Shown one piece after another: positions 2,226 through 12,812 of a stretch of 21,892 nt of DNA; position 1 is the stretch's first letter, and the number at the start of each line of letters is the position of its first letter. The DNA lies in the IMG/VR virus record IMGVR_UViG_3300008108_000858, positions 1 to 21,892 of that record; one strand, written 5' to 3'. The stretch comes from a virus. Below the pieces are notes generated by a model that saw only the letters and a program-made list of their open reading frames with translations, was not told the origin of the DNA and did no database searches. A program made the translations under genes and the position numbers.

Positions 2226-3080
2226 ATGTCAACATTTGATGCAGTACTGGCACAGTACGAAAAAAGTAAACAAGCCACAGGTGGCAACGGAAACAAAGTC
2301 TCACAAGAAGACAGACTGAAAAAGTATTTCACCACACTTTTACCAAAAGGTTCTCGTGGTGAGGAAAAAAGAATTAGAATTTTACCATCTAAAGACGGAG
2401 GTTCACCTTTTGTTGAGGTGTATTTTCACGAAGTTCAAGTGGATGGTCAGTGGTTAAAACTCTATGACCCAAAACAAGAAGGTAAAAGATCACCATTAAA
2501 TGAGGTTCATCAAAGTTTAATGGAGACAGGTGTTGAATCAGATAGAGAACTTGCAAGACAATATCGTTCTCGTAAATTCTACATTGTAAAGATTATCGAT
2601 AGAGACCATGAAGCAGATGGTGTGAAATTTTGGAGATTTAAACACAACGCAAAGAACGAAGGTGTTTTAGATAAAATCTTCCCTATCTTTAAAAATAAAG
2701 GAGACATTACTGATATTAACAAAGGAAGAGATTTGATTCTTTCTTTGGGACTAACTAAAGCGGGAACAGGGAAAGAATATACAACTATTAATTCCATTAT
2801 TCCTGAAGACCAAGGACCACTTCACGAAGACCAAAATAAAGCAAATGAATGGGTTAATGACTCATTAACATGGTCTGACGTTTACTCTAAAAAGGGAGAA
2901 GACTATCTTGAATTGGTTGCTAATGGAGAGACTCCGAAATGGAGTACTGAAAGTAATAAATGGATTTCAGCAACTCAGTTGGAATCTCGTTCAGAAGAAA
3001 CAATTGCGGCTCCTAAAAAATCTGCACCAGTTGTTGATCTTCAGGATGATGACGATACCGACTCAGATTTACCATTTTAA
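2226..3080 (+). CDS. 32: gp32-like single-stranded DNA-binding protein
   Basis: A T4 gp32-type protein of 284 aa (T4 gp32 is about 300) that coats single-stranded DNA during replication, recombination and repair. The N-terminus (about 1-35, with EDRLKKYF) matches the region that in T4 drives cooperative binding. A basic/aromatic OB-like core follows (IRILPSKDGGSPFVEVYFHEV at 50-70, RSRKFYIVKII, FWRFKHNA, DITDINKGRDL). The C-terminus is very acidic and ends DSDLPF. The protein contains no cysteine at all, so the zinc-binding His/Cys site of T4 gp32 is absent; the matching stretch is about 76-95. The last residues resemble the DIPF tip of bacterial SSB, which recruits partner proteins. It stands alone between two terminators and next to uvsX, which supports the assignment and suggests separate, strong expression. 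Confidence 0.88.
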   Translation: MSTFDAVLAQYEKSKQATGGNGNKVSQEDRLKKYFTTLLPKGSRGEEKRIRILPSKDGGSPFVEVYFHEVQVDGQWLKLYDPKQEGKRSPLNEVHQSLMETGVESDRELARQYRSRKFYIVKIIDRDHEADGVKFWRFKHNAKNEGVLDKIFPIFKNKGDITDINKGRDLILSLGLTKAGTGKEYTTINSIIPEDQGPLHEDQNKANEWVNDSLTWSDVYSKKGEDYLELVANGETPKWSTESNKWISATQLESRSEETIAAPKKSAPVVDLQDDDDTDSDLPF

Positions 3081-3140: not shown

Positions 3141-4121
3141 ATGGCAATTAAGAAAACAGATTTTAGTTCAATTAAGAAAAAGTTCTCAAAAGAGGCGGAA
3201 TATAAACCTGACCGATTTTTCGATTTGGGTGACGCATTTTTAGATGCATGTGGTATTCCCGGCCCTGCGATGGGACATATCAATATGTTATTAGGACATA
3301 GTGATACAGGTAAAACAACTGCGTTGGTTAAATCGGCGGTAGATGCACAAAAAAAGGGTATCATTCCTGTGTTCATTATTACAGAACAAAAATGGAGTTG
3401 GGACCATGCCGAATTGATGGGATTCGATAAGGATGGTGATTATCTTTTTAATAGTGATTTCGAGTACATTGAACAAATCACAGATTATATCAATGAACTA
3501 CTTGATGCACAAGAGAAAGGAGACTTACCTCATGATTTATTAATCCTATGGGATTCTGTTGGTTCAGTTCCATGTAAGATGACATATGATGGTAAAGGTG
3601 GTAAACAACACAATGCATCGGTTTTGGCAGATAAAATCGGAATGGGTATTAACCAACGTATATCGGGGTCAAGAAGAACTGATAAACCTCATACAAACAC
3701 TTTAATTATTGTTAACCAACCATGGGTGGAATTACCTGACAACCCATTTGGACAACCAAAAATTAAAGCAAAAGGTGGTGAGGCGATTTGGTTGAATTCA
3801 AGTATTGTGTTCCTATTTGGTAATCAAAAAGGTGCAGGTACGACCAAAATCTCAATCACAAAAGATAAGAGAAAAGTTAAAATTGCTACAAGAACAAAAA
3901 TCTCAATTATGAAAAACCACATCAATGGTTTGGGATATGAAGATGGACGTATCTTGGTAACATCACATGGGTTTATGCCGGGTAGAGAAGATTCTGAAGA
4001 GAAAAAATCTATCGATGAGTACAAAAAACAGAGTGGTGATTACATTAGTAAAATGTTAGGTGTTAGTGTTACTGACATTACGGATGTAGAAGTAGTAACA
4101 GAAGAAAGTAATGATTTTTAA
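3141..4121 (+). CDS. uvsX: UvsX-like RecA-family recombinase
   Basis: This ATP-dependent strand-exchange protein forms filaments on single-stranded DNA and, in T4-type phages, drives recombination-dependent replication. The 326-aa chain has the RecA core: Walker A GHSDTGKTT (52-60), the catalytic Glu in TEQ (E82, equivalent to RecA E96), Walker B LLILWDS (133-139), and the sensing pair N192-Q193, followed by loop L2 (about 194-213) and the KGGEAIWLNSS segment typical of UvsX. It is somewhat shorter than T4 UvsX (about 390 aa), mainly at the C-terminus, which ends acidic (TEESNDF). The start has no Shine-Dalgarno but an A-rich leader. It lies 9 bases upstream of the exonuclease gene, after the gp32 terminator, consistent with a recombination/replication operon. 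The family assignment is firm. Confidence 0.93.
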   Translation: MAIKKTDFSSIKKKFSKEAEYKPDRFFDLGDAFLDACGIPGPAMGHINMLLGHSDTGKTTALVKSAVDAQKKGIIPVFIITEQKWSWDHAELMGFDKDGDYLFNSDFEYIEQITDYINELLDAQEKGDLPHDLLILWDSVGSVPCKMTYDGKGGKQHNASVLADKIGMGINQRISGSRRTDKPHTNTLIIVNQPWVELPDNPFGQPKIKAKGGEAIWLNSSIVFLFGNQKGAGTTKISITKDKRKVKIATRTKISIMKNHINGLGYEDGRILVTSHGFMPGREDSEEKKSIDEYKKQSGDYISKMLGVSVTDITDVEVVTEESNDF

Positions 4122-4130
4122 TAATGATTA

Positions 4131-5153
4131 ATGTCTGTATTATTAGTTGATGGTGACAATTTACTTACGATTGGTTTCTTTGGTCTTAAAAATCACTTCT
4201 ATAAGGGAAAACACATTGGTGGAATTTTTCATTTTATCAATACTCTTAGAAAATCGTTTGAGATTTATCATTTAGACAAAATCGTTGTCTTTTGGGACGG
4301 TAAGGATGGGTCACAATCTAGAAGACAAATCTATCATCAATACAAGGAGAATCGAAAAAACAGGATTAGAAGTGAAGAGGAAATAGATAATTACAATTAT
4401 CAAAGACATAGAATAAAACAATATCTCGAAGAATTATACGTAAGACAGGGAGAATTTGAGTTCTGTGAAAGTGATGATTGTATTGCCTACTACTCCCTTA
4501 GTTCCCAAGAAGAAAATAAGATTATTTATTCTTCTGATGGGGATTTAACACAACTTGTTTCAGAAAGCACCCACATATTCAATCCATCACATCAAAAACT
4601 CTATAAGGTCAATGATACAATAATTTACAATCATGAACCTGTTCACATTGATAATGTGAAATTGATAAAGATGTTGTGTGGAGACCCGTCTGATAATATT
4701 TCAGGAATTAAAAATATGGGAGTTAAAAGGTTATTAACCTTGTTTCCTGAGATAAGAGAAAGGGGTGTTTCATTGGAAGAAGTCATAGACCGCACCAATC
4801 AACTATTCGAACAAGATAAACATAATTGGTTATATAAAAATATTTTAACCGGTGTTACCAAGTATGGTGTGTTTGGTGAAGAATTCTTCCAAGTGAACAA
4901 AAGAATAGTTAGTCTCGAAGAACCGTTTCTAACTGATGAAGCAAAGGAAAATATAGATTTATTAATTAATGATGTTTTAGATCCTGAAGGCCGTTCATAT
5001 AAAAATATGATGAAAATGATGACGGAGGATGGAATTTTCAATTTGTTACCAAAATCTGATGATGCGTGGACAAATTTTCTAAATCCATTTTTAAGATTAA
5101 CGAGAAAAGAAAAAAATAAAAAAAAAATAATCAAAGTTAAAAATTATGAATAA
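4131..5153 (+). CDS. rnh: RNase H / 5'-3' flap exonuclease (FEN family)
   Basis: A T4 RNase H-like nuclease that removes RNA primers and 5' flaps during lagging-strand synthesis. The 340-aa protein carries the FEN/PIN-like acidic active site in order: LLVDGDN (D7, D9), VFWDGKDG (D56), the arch basic segment QYKENRKNR (70-78), CESDDCIAYY (E113, D115, D116), YSSDGDLTQLV (D136, D138) and GDPSDNISGI (D185, D188), leading into a helix-3-turn-helix DNA-binding motif (KNMGVKRLL). Length is close to T4 RNase H (305 aa), with a Lys-rich tail (RKEKNKKKIIKVK). The tail is encoded through a run of ten A (5118-5127), a possible slippage point. The gene overlaps the next one by 8 bases, suggesting coupled translation. 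Confidence 0.9.
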   Translation: MSVLLVDGDNLLTIGFFGLKNHFYKGKHIGGIFHFINTLRKSFEIYHLDKIVVFWDGKDGSQSRRQIYHQYKENRKNRIRSEEEIDNYNYQRHRIKQYLEELYVRQGEFEFCESDDCIAYYSLSSQEENKIIYSSDGDLTQLVSESTHIFNPSHQKLYKVNDTIIYNHEPVHIDNVKLIKMLCGDPSDNISGIKNMGVKRLLTLFPEIRERGVSLEEVIDRTNQLFEQDKHNWLYKNILTGVTKYGVFGEEFFQVNKRIVSLEEPFLTDEAKENIDLLINDVLDPEGRSYKNMMKMMTEDGIFNLLPKSDDAWTNFLNPFLRLTRKEKNKKKIIKVKNYE

Positions 5154-5592
5154 TCAACAAGAAATCACAAAATTCGAATTTTTGTTTACATTAGATGGAA
5201 ATATCGTGTGTCAAAGATTCTTCAACGTAAAAAACCATAATCCACAAGCAAGAAGAAGTATGGATTTACATGAATATGTAAAAAATATTTCGGAAGATAT
5301 CAGTGATGATTTGAAAATAAAAACATCCGATTATCTGTGTGAAAATCAAAATTATTTCTCAAATTTAGAGGTTGTGGAAGATTCGTCCGAAGATAAAAAA
5401 GAAGACTTTTTGATTGAAATTAAACTCAACGATGATGTATTTATTTCAAGAATATTCCCCGCATACTACTATCACCCTAAAGTAAGATACACTGTGGATA
5501 TTCGCCCAAAATTGAGAAGAATTTTGTCAGACTTAACTGACATTTTGTCATCCAAAAATTTGGAAACAACATATTTGAATTATCAACTTTAA
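5146..5592 (+). CDS. Unknown replication-block protein made of a duplicated domain, 148 aa
   Basis: No family is recognised. Residues 10-56 and 88-134 align without any gap at an offset of 78, sharing F10/F88, L16/L94, R24/R102, F26/F104, P33/P111, R36/R114, D40/D118, I48/I126, D51/D129, D54/D132 and L56/L134, plus many conservative pairs. Each copy reads as a few beta strands (F-x5-L, V-x3-R-x-F) followed by a helix beginning at the MD/VD-(L/I) position. An acidic linker with VEDSSEDKKED separates the copies. The gene is wedged between the exonuclease (8-base overlap) and the helicase (11-base gap), so a role as a replication accessory such as a helicase or clamp partner is plausible, but this is inferred from position only. 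T4 has genes 33 and 59 downstream of rnh; no similarity to their products is visible to me. Confidence 0.8.
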   Translation: MNNQQEITKFEFLFTLDGNIVCQRFFNVKNHNPQARRSMDLHEYVKNISEDISDDLKIKTSDYLCENQNYFSNLEVVEDSSEDKKEDFLIEIKLNDDVFISRIFPAYYYHPKVRYTVDIRPKLRRILSDLTDILSSKNLETTYLNYQL

Positions 5593-5603
5593 AATAAAAA
5601 AAA

Positions 5604-6983
5604 ATGTCAGAAGAGAAAAATTTTGGTTATCTAGGTCACACGTTTCAACAACAATTAATAAAGTCCATTATTGAAGATAAAAAATTTGGTGATGTAATTA
5701 TTGATGTCTTAGAAAGCAAGTATTTTGATAACAATTCATTTAAGTTCATTATGGAAAACATAAAGGAACTTCACTTGTCTTATAACAAAGTACCCAACTA
5801 TGAAACATTGGCTCAAAAAATAATGTCTGAAGGCGGTAACAAAGATGTTAATCGTCCACACATTGATACACTAGAATCAATCAAAAATTTGGAGAAAAAT
5901 GATGAGTTTGTTAAAGACAAATCATTAAATTTCTGTAGACAACAAAATCTTAAAAAGGAATTAAAGGTCATCCAATCAATTATTGAGAATGGAGAATTCG
6001 AATCCTACAATAAGATTGAACAAAAAATCCAAAAGGCGTTACAAGTAGGTATAATGAATGATACTGTTGTTGATGTTTTTCACAACATAGACGATGCACT
6101 TGAAAAGGATTATAGATTACCTATTAGAACGGGTATCGTTGGATTAGATAACGTACTAAAGGGTGGTTTAGGTCGAGGTGAATTAGGTGTTGTTTTGGCA
6201 CCAACTGGTACAGGAAAAACTACCTTAATGACCAAATTTGCAAACACGGCATATAATGATGGTTTTAATGTTCTTCAAATATTTTTCGAAGATAATGAAG
6301 CACAAATTAAAAGAAAACATTATACAATTTGGTCAGGAATTGCACCGGATGACCAACCTGAATTTAAAGAAGAAGTTTTATCTGCGGTTAGAGAACAACA
6401 AGAAAGGTCTACAGGATCTTTGAAACTATCCAAGTTACCGAGTGACAACATTACAATTTCTGAAATTAAATCTAAGATTAGAAAAATGATTTCAGAAGGG
6501 TTTAAACCTGACTTGGTACTAATCGACTATGTTGATTGTATCTCACCTGAAAGAAGTGTTGATGGTGAAGAATGGAAGGGTGAGGGTTCAATCATGAGAA
6601 GTTTAGAATCAATGACATCCGAATTCAATATTGCTATTTGGACTGCAACTCAAGGTAATAGAGGTTCAATTTCATCTGAGGTTGTGACAGGAGACCAAAT
6701 GGGTGGTTCTATTAAGAAGGCACAAATAGCACACATCATTCTTTCAATTGGTAAAACACTTGAACAAAAGGAGAGCAATTTGGCTACATTAACTTTATTA
6801 AAATCTCGTGTTGGTAAGGATGGTATTATTTGGCAAAATTGTAAATTCGACAATCAATTCTTAGTGATTGATACGGAGTCACAAAACACTTTGTTGGGTC
6901 ACGAACATCAACAAGAAGAGAGAAGATCGAATAGAGCTGCCGAAGTCTTTAGAAAGGCACAAGAAAAAAAAGTTAGAGTTTAA
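5604..6983 (+). CDS. 41: Replicative DNA helicase, DnaB/gp41-like
   Basis: A hexameric 5'-3' helicase of the DnaB/T4 gp41 type that unwinds the replication fork. The 459-aa chain (T4 gp41 is 475) has an N-terminal helical domain (about 1-150), a linker, then the RecA-like motor: Walker A APTGTGKTT (199-207), the catalytic acidic pair in FFED (E229-D230), Walker B LVLIDYVD (304-311), the glutamine motif ATQGNRG (near 350) and an arginine-finger segment KSRVGKDG (near 400). The segment RTGIVGLDNVLKGGL just before Walker A is typical of DnaB-type helicases. The C-terminus is basic and Glu/Arg-rich. It follows the duplicated-domain protein by 11 bases and precedes nrdB by 12. No primase (gp61-like) gene lies in the window. 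Confidence 0.92.
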   Translation: MSEEKNFGYLGHTFQQQLIKSIIEDKKFGDVIIDVLESKYFDNNSFKFIMENIKELHLSYNKVPNYETLAQKIMSEGGNKDVNRPHIDTLESIKNLEKNDEFVKDKSLNFCRQQNLKKELKVIQSIIENGEFESYNKIEQKIQKALQVGIMNDTVVDVFHNIDDALEKDYRLPIRTGIVGLDNVLKGGLGRGELGVVLAPTGTGKTTLMTKFANTAYNDGFNVLQIFFEDNEAQIKRKHYTIWSGIAPDDQPEFKEEVLSAVREQQERSTGSLKLSKLPSDNITISEIKSKIRKMISEGFKPDLVLIDYVDCISPERSVDGEEWKGEGSIMRSLESMTSEFNIAIWTATQGNRGSISSEVVTGDQMGGSIKKAQIAHIILSIGKTLEQKESNLATLTLLKSRVGKDGIIWQNCKFDNQFLVIDTESQNTLLGHEHQQEERRSNRAAEVFRKAQEKKVRV

Positions 6984-8057: not shown

Positions 8058-8762
8058 ATGTATATCTATAAAACGACCAATTTAATTAACGGTAAAATTT
8101 ACATAGGTAAGAGCGAAAAACATTTCAATCCAAATTATTACGGTAGTGGTATTTTATTGAAGAAATCGGTAAAAAAATATGGGATTGAAAACTTTTCGGT
8201 TGAACTTATTGAAAAATGTGACTCTATTGAAGAGTTAAATTATAGAGAAAAGTATTGGATATTACAATATATTGACAATTCGTATAACATTGCAGAAGGA
8301 GGTACGGGAGGATGGACAACAAAAAATTATACATCAGAACAAAAATTAGAATATGGTAAATTATTATCTGAAATACGGAAAGGTAGAAAACATAGTGAAG
8401 AAACTATTCAAAAATTAAAAATTATGCATAGTGGTAAAAATTTTGGTGATAGTGAAAAAGTTAGTGAAACCATTAAGAAATTATGGAAAGACCCAAACTC
8501 GATTTACAATTCTAAAGAATATAGAAATAGACTATCTATTGCCAGTAAAAAAAGAATATGGACCGATGAAACAAAAGAAAAAATAAGACAAAGTAAAATT
8601 GGTTCAAAAAATCCGGTATCAATTAAAATTGAAGTTGACGGAGTAATTTTCGAAACCAGAAGAGAATGTGCAAAACATTTTAAGATTAGTGAACCTGCTG
8701 TTACAAAAAGATGTAAAAGCAAAAACTTCGAAAATTGGAAAATAATTAACAAAAAAAATTAA
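8058..8762 (+). CDS. Free-standing GIY-YIG homing endonuclease
   Basis: A site-specific endonuclease of the SegA/I-TevI type that cuts a cognate site and spreads its own gene by repair. The 234-aa chain begins with the GIY-YIG nuclease: YIYKTTNLINGKIYIGKS (2-19), the YYGSG segment (27-31), KYGIENF, a catalytic Glu in NYREKYWI and the closing Asn in SYNIAEGGTGG. Next come NUMOD3-like DNA-binding motifs (KGRKHSEETIQKL and RIWTDETKEKIRQSKIG) and a C-terminal IENR1/NUMOD1-like helix-turn-helix (ETRRECAKHFKISEPAVTKRC). It lies between nrdB (63-base gap) and nrdA (20-base gap) without interrupting either, and no intron is evident. It is Lys- and Asn-rich, consistent with independent acquisition. 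The nrd genes are known hot spots for such elements in T4-type phages; the likely target is a nearby nrd sequence, but this is not shown here. Confidence 0.92.
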   Translation: MYIYKTTNLINGKIYIGKSEKHFNPNYYGSGILLKKSVKKYGIENFSVELIEKCDSIEELNYREKYWILQYIDNSYNIAEGGTGGWTTKNYTSEQKLEYGKLLSEIRKGRKHSEETIQKLKIMHSGKNFGDSEKVSETIKKLWKDPNSIYNSKEYRNRLSIASKKRIWTDETKEKIRQSKIGSKNPVSIKIEVDGVIFETRRECAKHFKISEPAVTKRCKSKNFENWKIINKKN

Positions 8763-11107: not shown

Positions 11108-11860
11108 ATGTCAAAGAAAATATCATACGCAACCAGAGATTTTGCGGGACTAAGGGAAGAGTTGGTTAACATGACCAAAAGTTATTATCCTGATTTAGTT
11201 AAAAACACTAATGATGCCTCAATATTCTCAGTATTATTAGATTTGAATGCAGCGGTTGCTGATAACTTACATTTTCATATTGATAGAGTTTGGCAAGAAA
11301 CCATTTTGGATTTTGCTCAACAAAGACAATCGTTATTTCATATTGCAAAAACATATGGTTTAAGAATACCGGGTAATAGACCTTCGGTAGCATTGTGTGA
11401 CTTTTCAATAAATGTACCTGTTAGTGGTGACTCAGAAAAAACTGAATATCTTGGTTTACTTAGAGCTGGAGCCCAAGTATCGGGTGGTGGACAAATTTTT
11501 GAGACCCTTGAAGACATTGATTTCTCAAACCCGTTCAATAGTAAGGGTGAACCAAATAGATTGAAAATCCCAAATTTTGATGGTAATCGTAATTTAATAT
11601 CATATACAATCACCAAAAGAGAAGCGGTTGTAAATGGTGTTACACGAGTTTTCAGAAAGGTGATAACTGATTTGGAACAACGACCATTTTTGAAAATTTT
11701 CTTACCTGAACAAAATGTATTAGGTGTAACGTCTGTTATACATAAAGATGGTACAACCTTTGGTGCGAATCCTACAAATGGAGAATTCAGTTCACCAACA
11801 AACAAATGGTATGAGGTATTTTCATTTAACTTTTGGTTCGGGAACTGTAAATCCACTTGA
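11108..11860 (+). CDS. 6: gp6-like baseplate wedge protein, N-terminal part (frameshifted)
   Basis: The N-terminal portion of a T4 gp6/gpJ-type wedge protein, which dimerises to form the ring around the baseplate hub. Conserved signs: ATRDFAGLREEL (8-19), SYYPDL, DASIFSVLLDLNAAVADNL with its companion helix HIDRVWQETILDFAQ, and then the KTYGLRIPGNRPS turn that opens the beta domain. Family-like sequence continues to about NKWYEV (codon ending at 11818). After that the frame reads FSFNFWFGNCKST and stops at TGA, the only TGA stop of any candidate gene here, so the tail is out-of-frame noise. The rest of the protein continues in another frame at about 11820. Either a real mutation, an assembly or read error, or (less likely) recoding explains this. 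Confidence 0.8.
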   Translation: MSKKISYATRDFAGLREELVNMTKSYYPDLVKNTNDASIFSVLLDLNAAVADNLHFHIDRVWQETILDFAQQRQSLFHIAKTYGLRIPGNRPSVALCDFSINVPVSGDSEKTEYLGLLRAGAQVSGGGQIFETLEDIDFSNPFNSKGEPNRLKIPNFDGNRNLISYTITKREAVVNGVTRVFRKVITDLEQRPFLKIFLPEQNVLGVTSVIHKDGTTFGANPTNGEFSSPTNKWYEVFSFNFWFGNCKST

Positions 11861-12812
11861 TAATTTGGACAATTATATAACAGGGGATTTAAAAGTAAAC
11901 TTAGCCACATATCTTAATAATTTATCCCTTGGTGCACTACCTAAAGCCAACACAACTTTATTCATAAAATATAGAATCGGTGGAGGTAGAGATAGTAATT
12001 TAGGTGTAAATGTTATTACAAGTGTTGATAATGTTGATTTTGCAGTGAATGGTCCAGTATCTTCAGTTAATACACAAGTAATACAATCACTAAGAGTAAC
12101 CAATGTTACTCCTGCAATTGGTGGGGCAGACCAACCAACTGTTGAGGAAATCAGAAACATGGTTTCATACAATTTTGCTGCACAAAATAGAGCCGTAACA
12201 TTAAATGACTACAAATCAGTTATTGAGAATATGCCGTCCACTTTTGGTGCACCTGCCAAGGTTAATGTTATGGAAGAAGACAATAAAGTTAAGATTAAAC
12301 TTATTTCATATAATGAGAGAGGTAGTTTAACTAATGTTGTTTCCACTACACTAAAAAATAACATTATAGAATACCTTTCTGAATATAGAATGATTAATGA
12401 TTATTTAGAAATTGAAAGTGGTGAAGTTATTGATTTATCAGTTGAAATTTCTGTTTTTGGTGATAAAAATGAAAGTGAAACTGAAATTGTCCGTTCGGTA
12501 ATCGAGGCAGCCATACAATATTTTTCAATCGACAAAAGAAAAATGGGTGATCCACTCTTTATTGGTGATTTATTTAAAGAAATTGGTACACTTTCAGGTG
12601 TTGTAAGTGTGACTGAAATTAAAGTATTTGGTAAAGTTGGGGGTGAATATTCAACGAATGAAGTTTCAGTTGGATATGTGGATGAAACAAAGAAAGAAAT
12701 TAGACAATCAGATATGACAATCTTTATGAAATCAAATCAAATCCCTCAAATAAGATTTCCTAATAAAGATATTAAAGTAAGTGTTAAACCATATAATTCC
12801 CCTACATATTAA
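11748..12812 (+). CDS. 6: gp6-like baseplate wedge protein, C-terminal part (frameshifted)
   Basis: This frame carries the C-terminal portion of the gp6-like protein. Genuine family sequence begins near 11823 (HLTFGSGTVNP), so the ATG at 11748 is only the first start in this frame and its first ~25 residues are an out-of-frame reading of the upstream part. Typical gp6/J features follow: the FGSG turn, TTLFIKYRIGGGRDSN, the PTVEEIRNMVSYNFAAQNRAVT motif with NDYKSVIENMPS (a hallmark of J-type wedge proteins), and helix/strand repeats to KVSVKPYNSPTY. A +1 shift at the T run 11819-11822 would join WYEV to FHLTFGSG. The joined protein would be about 568 aa against 660 for T4 gp6. Confidence 0.8.
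   Translation: MVQPLVRILQMENSVHQQTNGMRYFHLTFGSGTVNPLDNLDNYITGDLKVNLATYLNNLSLGALPKANTTLFIKYRIGGGRDSNLGVNVITSVDNVDFAVNGPVSSVNTQVIQSLRVTNVTPAIGGADQPTVEEIRNMVSYNFAAQNRAVTLNDYKSVIENMPSTFGAPAKVNVMEEDNKVKIKLISYNERGSLTNVVSTTLKNNIIEYLSEYRMINDYLEIESGEVIDLSVEISVFGDKNESETEIVRSVIEAAIQYFSIDKRKMGDPLFIGDLFKEIGTLSGVVSVTEIKVFGKVGGEYSTNEVSVGYVDETKKEIRQSDMTIFMKSNQIPQIRFPNKDIKVSVKPYNSPTY

Follow-up and report, generated by a model that had tools for sequence, protein, structure and literature searches.

Our best reading of an unnamed gene in the window, the whole 21,892-nucleotide stretch of DNA analysed here, is that its product serves the replication fork as a dedicated accessory in a large, T4-related lineage of phages known only from uncultured material. 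Judged from its sequence and predicted fold, the product, which we call X, consists of a single strand-strand-helix unit present in two copies that have diverged, and its gene lies in a block of SSB, RecA, exonuclease and helicase genes (Table 1). A helicase-loader or SSB-partner role is plausible, with the type of SSB tail and the linkage to the helicase gene as indirect support. The core replication block of a phage lineage that is widespread, with contigs of up to 380 kb, gains an unnamed gene, which was present in every helicase-selected locus tested and is linked to a switch in the SSB tail.

The coordinates and frame of X, its overlap with the flap exonuclease gene and its place before the helicase gene were all as given in a preliminary description of this DNA. 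The exonuclease gene overlaps the start of X by 8 nt, and 11 nt separate the X stop from the helicase start. Six pairwise comparisons with the window copy gave dN/dS values of 0.09-0.16, indicating purifying selection and therefore a real gene.

Table 1. Features of the replication block and of X in the window
Feature	Coordinates	Strand	Basis and details
gp32-like SSB, C-terminal DLPF at 3066-3077	2226..3080	+	PF08804 E 2.9e-15; translation
RecA/UvsX-like recombinase, same block	3141..4121	+	phrog_97, PF00154
5'-3' exonuclease (flap/RNase H type)	4131..5153	+	PF02739 E 2.8e-26, phrog_107
X gene, uncharacterised two-copy protein, 148 aa	5146..5592	+	ORF; purifying selection; relatives
N-terminal copy of X, residues 6-66	5161..5343	+	Predicted strands 7-16, 19-29; predicted helices 33-37, 39-66; invariant R24, F26
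Acidic low-confidence linker of X, residues 67-83	5344..5394	+	pLDDT <50 at 72-74 and 76-81
C-terminal copy of X, residues 84-141	5395..5568	+	Predicted strands 87-94, 97-105; predicted helices 111-115, 120-135; invariant R114, Y115
DnaB-like replicative helicase, directly 3' of X	5604..6983	+	phrog_19 E 2.7e-65, PF03796

Elsewhere in the window, a small DUF5856 protein (1757-2122; PF19174, E 4.6e-17) is encoded directly 5' of the SSB gene and is adjoined by a proline-rich 205-aa ORF, and a GIY-YIG homing endonuclease gene (8058-8762; phrog_314, E 3.8e-45) lies between the NrdB and NrdA genes. What we take by resemblance to be a gp6-like baseplate gene (11108-12812) is spread over two ORFs, 11108-11860 and 11748-12812, which overlap and differ in frame. 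Its relative in a distant X locus (L208, from 14706) is a single open frame up to the locus end; near 11.8 kb of the window, a sequencing error or a frameshift is likely.

Internal duplication and conserved residues of X

That X is built from two copies of one domain had been proposed from 11 identities in a gap-free alignment at an offset of 78, a count that proved exact on re-check. The best ungapped self-alignment of X falls at this same offset (residues 16-59, BLOSUM62 score 56), and its score was reached by 0 of 5000 whole-protein shuffles (99th percentile 39) and by 1 of 5000 local shuffles. To describe the repeat across the family we used 61 rows, comprising 60 distinct proteins of at least 130 aa from 78 helicase-selected loci together with the window copy, with shorter, cut or duplicate X proteins left out; the internal repeat was detected at p<=0.01 in 45 of these rows and at p<=0.05 in 54. 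Profiles of the two halves (residues 6-66 versus 84-141, 67 homologs) matched gap-free over 52 columns, with probabilities of 93.0% and 95.7% depending on direction (scores 34 and 40). Among the controls, the best of 200 column shuffles of the half profiles scored 17 (probability 9.4%), a reversed half profile scored 14, and 49 windows taken from five neighbouring proteins scored no more than 15. The match between halves was weak (15%) in the long X subset alone, and the repeat signal therefore comes mainly from the shorter members.

An AlphaFold2 model built from a deeper alignment (pLDDT 83.3, pTM 0.73), which superseded a first, shallow-alignment model (pLDDT 66), predicts that both halves run through one and the same succession of elements, spaced by the offset seen in the sequence repeat; it is on this succession that the comparison of the halves rests. 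Shuffles, half profiles and model bear out the two-copy proposal, as the predicted halves share their element order and profile searches returned no known single-domain family spanning both. The repeat shows, and the predicted fold supports, that an ancestral two-strands-plus-helix domain was duplicated and fused, after which its halves diverged.

Within the 61 rows R24, F26, R114, Y115 and V117 are invariant and F104 is kept in 60. Both halves carry a basic residue two before a Phe on the second strand (R24-x-F26 and R/K102-x-F104), with position 102 being basic in 57 rows. Four anchor pairs had been suggested between the halves, two of which hold in the family: 24/102, with R in 61/61 at 24 and R in 31 or K in 26 of 61 at 102, and 40/118, with E/D in 61/61 at 40 and D in 57/61 at 118. 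The other two do not, since only R114 and not R36 is invariant in the pair 36/114, and D54/D132 lacks conservation; the halves agree better at F10/F88, F12/F90 and F26/F104. Conservation in the 67-row A3 alignment is higher in the N half than in the C half, a contrast to be read with the partial selection of these rows by an N-half motif. We rejected CQR as an invariant signature of X: it is present in 67/67 A3 rows, but the scans behind A3 partly required it, and it occurs in only 35 of 78 helicase-selected X proteins, where R24 and F26 alone of that stretch are invariant. X is mostly acidic (pI <7 in 54 of 67 family members), which fits a protein-protein adaptor.

The X family and its gene neighbourhood

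X forms a large environmental family, carried by many uncultured phages of aquatic and animal-gut origin. In IMG/VR, a pattern scan returned 222 relatives, of which 80 were kept, among them 46 distinct proteins, and a genome-contig scan added two distant relatives (L207 and L208) on MAG contigs labelled Paludibacteraceae and Mycoplasmatota, both of which are phage-like. L208 has the gene order SSB-RecA-exonuclease-X-helicase; in L207 (532-1446) the X gene is broken around 1075 into two ORFs in different frames. X proteins reached from these two measure 146-330 aa, on contigs of up to 380 kb. A profile search found X in 291 of 295 sequences, the remaining four being X-lacking comparison records; many X loci overlap, having been cut from shared contigs, and distinct-sequence counts were used where possible.

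The window X matched no Pfam family and 0 PHROG v4 families, while some of its homologs weakly matched short unknown PHROGs (phrog_10862, best E 0.0027; phrog_7845, 0.0038). Searching 50,697 phage records by tblastn at E<=10 with X returned nothing, as did a plasmid search, and tblastn with its homologs returned nothing beyond chance-level matches (best E 0.5). PDB sequence searches gave chance matches to a kinase and a bromodomain (best E 0.086 and 0.075). With the model as query, the best PDB match had an E of 0.46 in Foldseek, the best VIA-align row was LepA/EF4 at Z 4.6 (rmsd 4.2, 96 aligned), under the noise level of the tool, and no known loader fold was matched in these fold searches. 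Two proteins belong to the same family by structure, A0A6J5L9R9 of an uncultured Caudovirales phage (E 1e-16, TM 0.90, 44% identity to X) and A0A8S5LA10 of Myoviridae sp. ctPuP5 (E 1.9e-6, TM 0.73, 19% identity); both are listed only as uncharacterised, with neither function nor duplication given. Herpesvirus LORF5/LORF11 matches in BFVD (E 0.0065-0.0095, rmsd 6.7-8.1) were not accepted as relatives. Literature searches did not find protein X, which has no name to search by. The preliminary description knew of no T4 counterpart, in agreement with the 67-member X profile, which had no match in the whole T4 genome; it found nothing either in the X-lacking isolates RM378, MaF61, Mx1, pT24 and Cellulophaga phi14:2. 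The X-bearing lineage may overlap or adjoin the 'moraphages', which PMC12619734 describes as phages of 200-307 kb, mostly from freshwater, with predicted Bacteroidota hosts.

Across X-selected loci (160 distinct X), the exonuclease gene lies upstream in 157 of the 158 with room (within 300 nt in 155 of the 157) and the helicase gene downstream in 151 of 153 (within 300 nt in 150 of the 151). Helicase-selected loci have X immediately upstream in 78/78 with room, none beyond 300 nt. This latter sample is the best 80 of 587 relatives of one X-bearing helicase, minus two with <600 nt upstream, and several of its loci are on contigs that had already been sampled; it was drawn by an alignment-based helicase scan, two single-sequence scans having given only 4 and 1 relatives. 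The survey of related phages proposed earlier confirms a conserved exonuclease-X-helicase order, and the view of X as a dedicated replication-block gene is supported.

Departures from this order are informative. A gene for a 352-aa protein with a metallopeptidase-like HELGHYFQ motif separates exonuclease and X in L250 (3815-4870) and L256 (3833-4888), where X is still beside the helicase. X stands directly after the exonuclease in L261 and L263, but without a helicase in the next 5 kb; the record containing L261 (G011) has its helicase 166 kb off, and no helicase match was found in that containing L263 (G012). A split exonuclease in some marine loci was ruled out, as the ORF of L269 is complete, encoding 343 aa from a TTG start codon. 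On one 380-kb contig (L296 = G005:C1:16000-28000; L267) the full SSB-RecA-exonuclease-X-helicase block occurs twice, near 18-24 kb and near 251-257 kb, in mutually diverged forms; the cause is a chimeric assembly or else a genuine duplication or exchange. The helicase ORF measures 832-851 aa in L208 (8927-11464), L211, L213, L220, L223, L256 and L294, and that of L208 has its P-loop interrupted by an insert that is intein-like, judging by its motif.

Relatives that lack X, SSB tails and known loaders

X is missing from three relatives that have this block, namely Immutovirus (L147), Microcystis phage Mel-JY01 (L146) and LR756508 (L145); none of them gave a match to the X profile. Flavobacterium phage vB_FspM_immuto_2-6A resembles the window in its order SSB-RecA-exonuclease-helicase-NrdB-NrdA, but lacks X, both between its exonuclease and helicase genes and at any other place, and its SSB ends FDDLFN. 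The X-bearing phages fall on one side of a branch in both the helicase tree (52 rows, support 99/100) and the exonuclease tree (46 rows, support 100/100). Because these trees carry flagged long branches, T4 among them, we treat a one-branch origin by single gain or single loss of X as a fair reading.

Among distinct, complete gp32-like SSBs of X loci, 108 of 109 end in P-F/Y, most commonly as DLPF (83 of 109). The sole exception ends DLPL and comes from a record (G008) with an additional, bacterial-type SSB whose tail is DIPF. G011 has no gp32-like SSB match, and its bacterial-type SSB ends DDLPF. Bacterial-type SSBs usually end in PF anyway. In none of the 12 X-lacking records examined does the SSB end in P-F/Y: that of T4 ends DLDDLLNDL, those of cyanophages have ends like SYFAKLAEED, and those of the three sisters end FDDLFN, FDDLFNKD and FSEIFDE. 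The association between X and the SSB tail is a correlation, with one single deep evolutionary change behind the contrast. The phage DLPF end beside X is like the tail of bacterial SSBs, which recruits many partners according to PMC11253446. R24, F26, R114 and Y115 are candidates only for residues that could form a pocket for the SSB P-F tail.

The gp59 profile PF08994 matched 0 of 11 X-bearing records and did match the T4 positive control; in a Pfam scan of 67 X-family members at E<=1, no gp59 was among the matches listed (25 of 27 families). This absence fits, without proving, that X fills the gp59 role. Of the 12 X-lacking records, 4 match gp59 at E<=0.1, two of them above cut-off, and the other 8 gave none. 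The three X-lacking sisters had no gp59 match either, suggesting that such a helicase may need neither X nor gp59. Genome-wide matches to PF01695, searched for DnaC/IstB-type AAA+ loaders, were mostly short stretches, over cut-off in 1 of 15 records. Mirror-tree partial correlations over 33 taxa were 0.56 for X-SSB, 0.47 for X-exonuclease, 0.20 for X-helicase and 0.01 for X-RecA, and lend weak support because equally high values were obtained for some pairs that do not involve X (helicase-exonuclease, 0.45).

Possible roles of X at the replication fork

We tentatively favour X as a replisome adaptor that would bring the DnaB-like helicase to SSB-coated DNA, a reading that we hold with somewhat less than even confidence. 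One half would dock the SSB tail or SSB-DNA, the other would dock the helicase, and X would thereby bring the helicase onto SSB-coated single strands; the physical binding of both partners, the loading step and the assignment of tasks to halves are all what we infer. Strict helicase linkage, one-branch origin, the P-F/Y tail, the lack of a gp59 match and the acidic pI argue for such an adaptor. Against it stand the distant helicase of G011, the record without a helicase match (G012), the absence of a matching loader fold, a mirror-tree signal weaker for helicase than for exonuclease or SSB, the single change behind the SSB tail contrast, and the sisters that have neither X nor a gp59 match. 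A bolder form, which we consider rather unlikely, would make X a new class of helicase mediator, neither AAA+ nor gp59-like, that arose by tandem duplication of a strand-strand-helix unit: one half would read the SSB P-F tail (of a bacterial-type SSB in one record), the other would grip the helicase, coupling loading to SSB-coated DNA, and the lineage would have acquired X and this tail jointly, at its root.

The main rival, itself somewhat improbable in our judgement, has X as a partner of the 5'-3' exonuclease, tethering the flap/RNase H nuclease to SSB or to the fork for Okazaki fragment processing. The overlap of the two genes in the window, the loci L261 and L263, in which X stays beside the exonuclease with no helicase following, and the higher partial correlation with the exonuclease than with the helicase all point this way; yet where the 352-aa gene parts exonuclease from X (L250 and L256), X stays beside the helicase, and three relatives have the exonuclease-helicase pair without X. 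X might instead be some other replisome or late-gene coupling factor, an adaptor of clamp, primase, polymerase or RNA polymerase that is only genetically linked to the helicase. Its place in a replication operon with SSB and RecA would suit this, as would the retention of X in G011 though the helicase lies elsewhere, but we regard it as quite unlikely: the gp45 clamp profile PF02916 was above cut-off only in T4 among 15 records, leaving the clamp-partner suggestion of the preliminary description unsupported, and no gene linkage to such partners was seen, with primase, polymerase and sigma genes lying outside the survey. That X acts in counter-defence or like an antitoxin, as T4 Dmd does, is very improbable. 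T4 dmd does lie directly after gene 41, and RB69 Dmd appears among the VIA-align rows (63/64 residues aligned, rmsd 3.4 A), but its Z of 3.1 is within the noise range of the tool, hhalign with T4 Dmd gave <2% probability for whole X and for each half, and a dN/dS near 0.1 with near-universal presence is unlike an arms-race gene.

If X is a helicase mediator, it would explain how forks start in these phages without a recognisable gp59, and would offer a compact, well-delimited model for studying the division of two binding tasks between the copies of a duplicated domain. DnaC/IstB-type AAA+ loaders would have only this possible role in common with X, which, unlike them, had no ATPase domain or P-loop family match in Pfam. 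The possible likeness to T4 gp59 (PF08993/PF08994) is also one of role, as both would be small proteins that assist a DnaB-like helicase in phages whose SSB is gp32-like. According to PMC3016281, gp59 is an alpha-helical, two-domain, branch-specific DNA-binding protein that interacts with gp41 and gp32 and loads gp41. By contrast, the predicted fold of X is a pair of strand-strand-helix units; the protein is mostly acidic, gave no match to gp59 and is encoded between exonuclease and helicase. The role proposed for X would therefore be close to that of gp59, carried out by a protein that differs in sequence and predicted fold.
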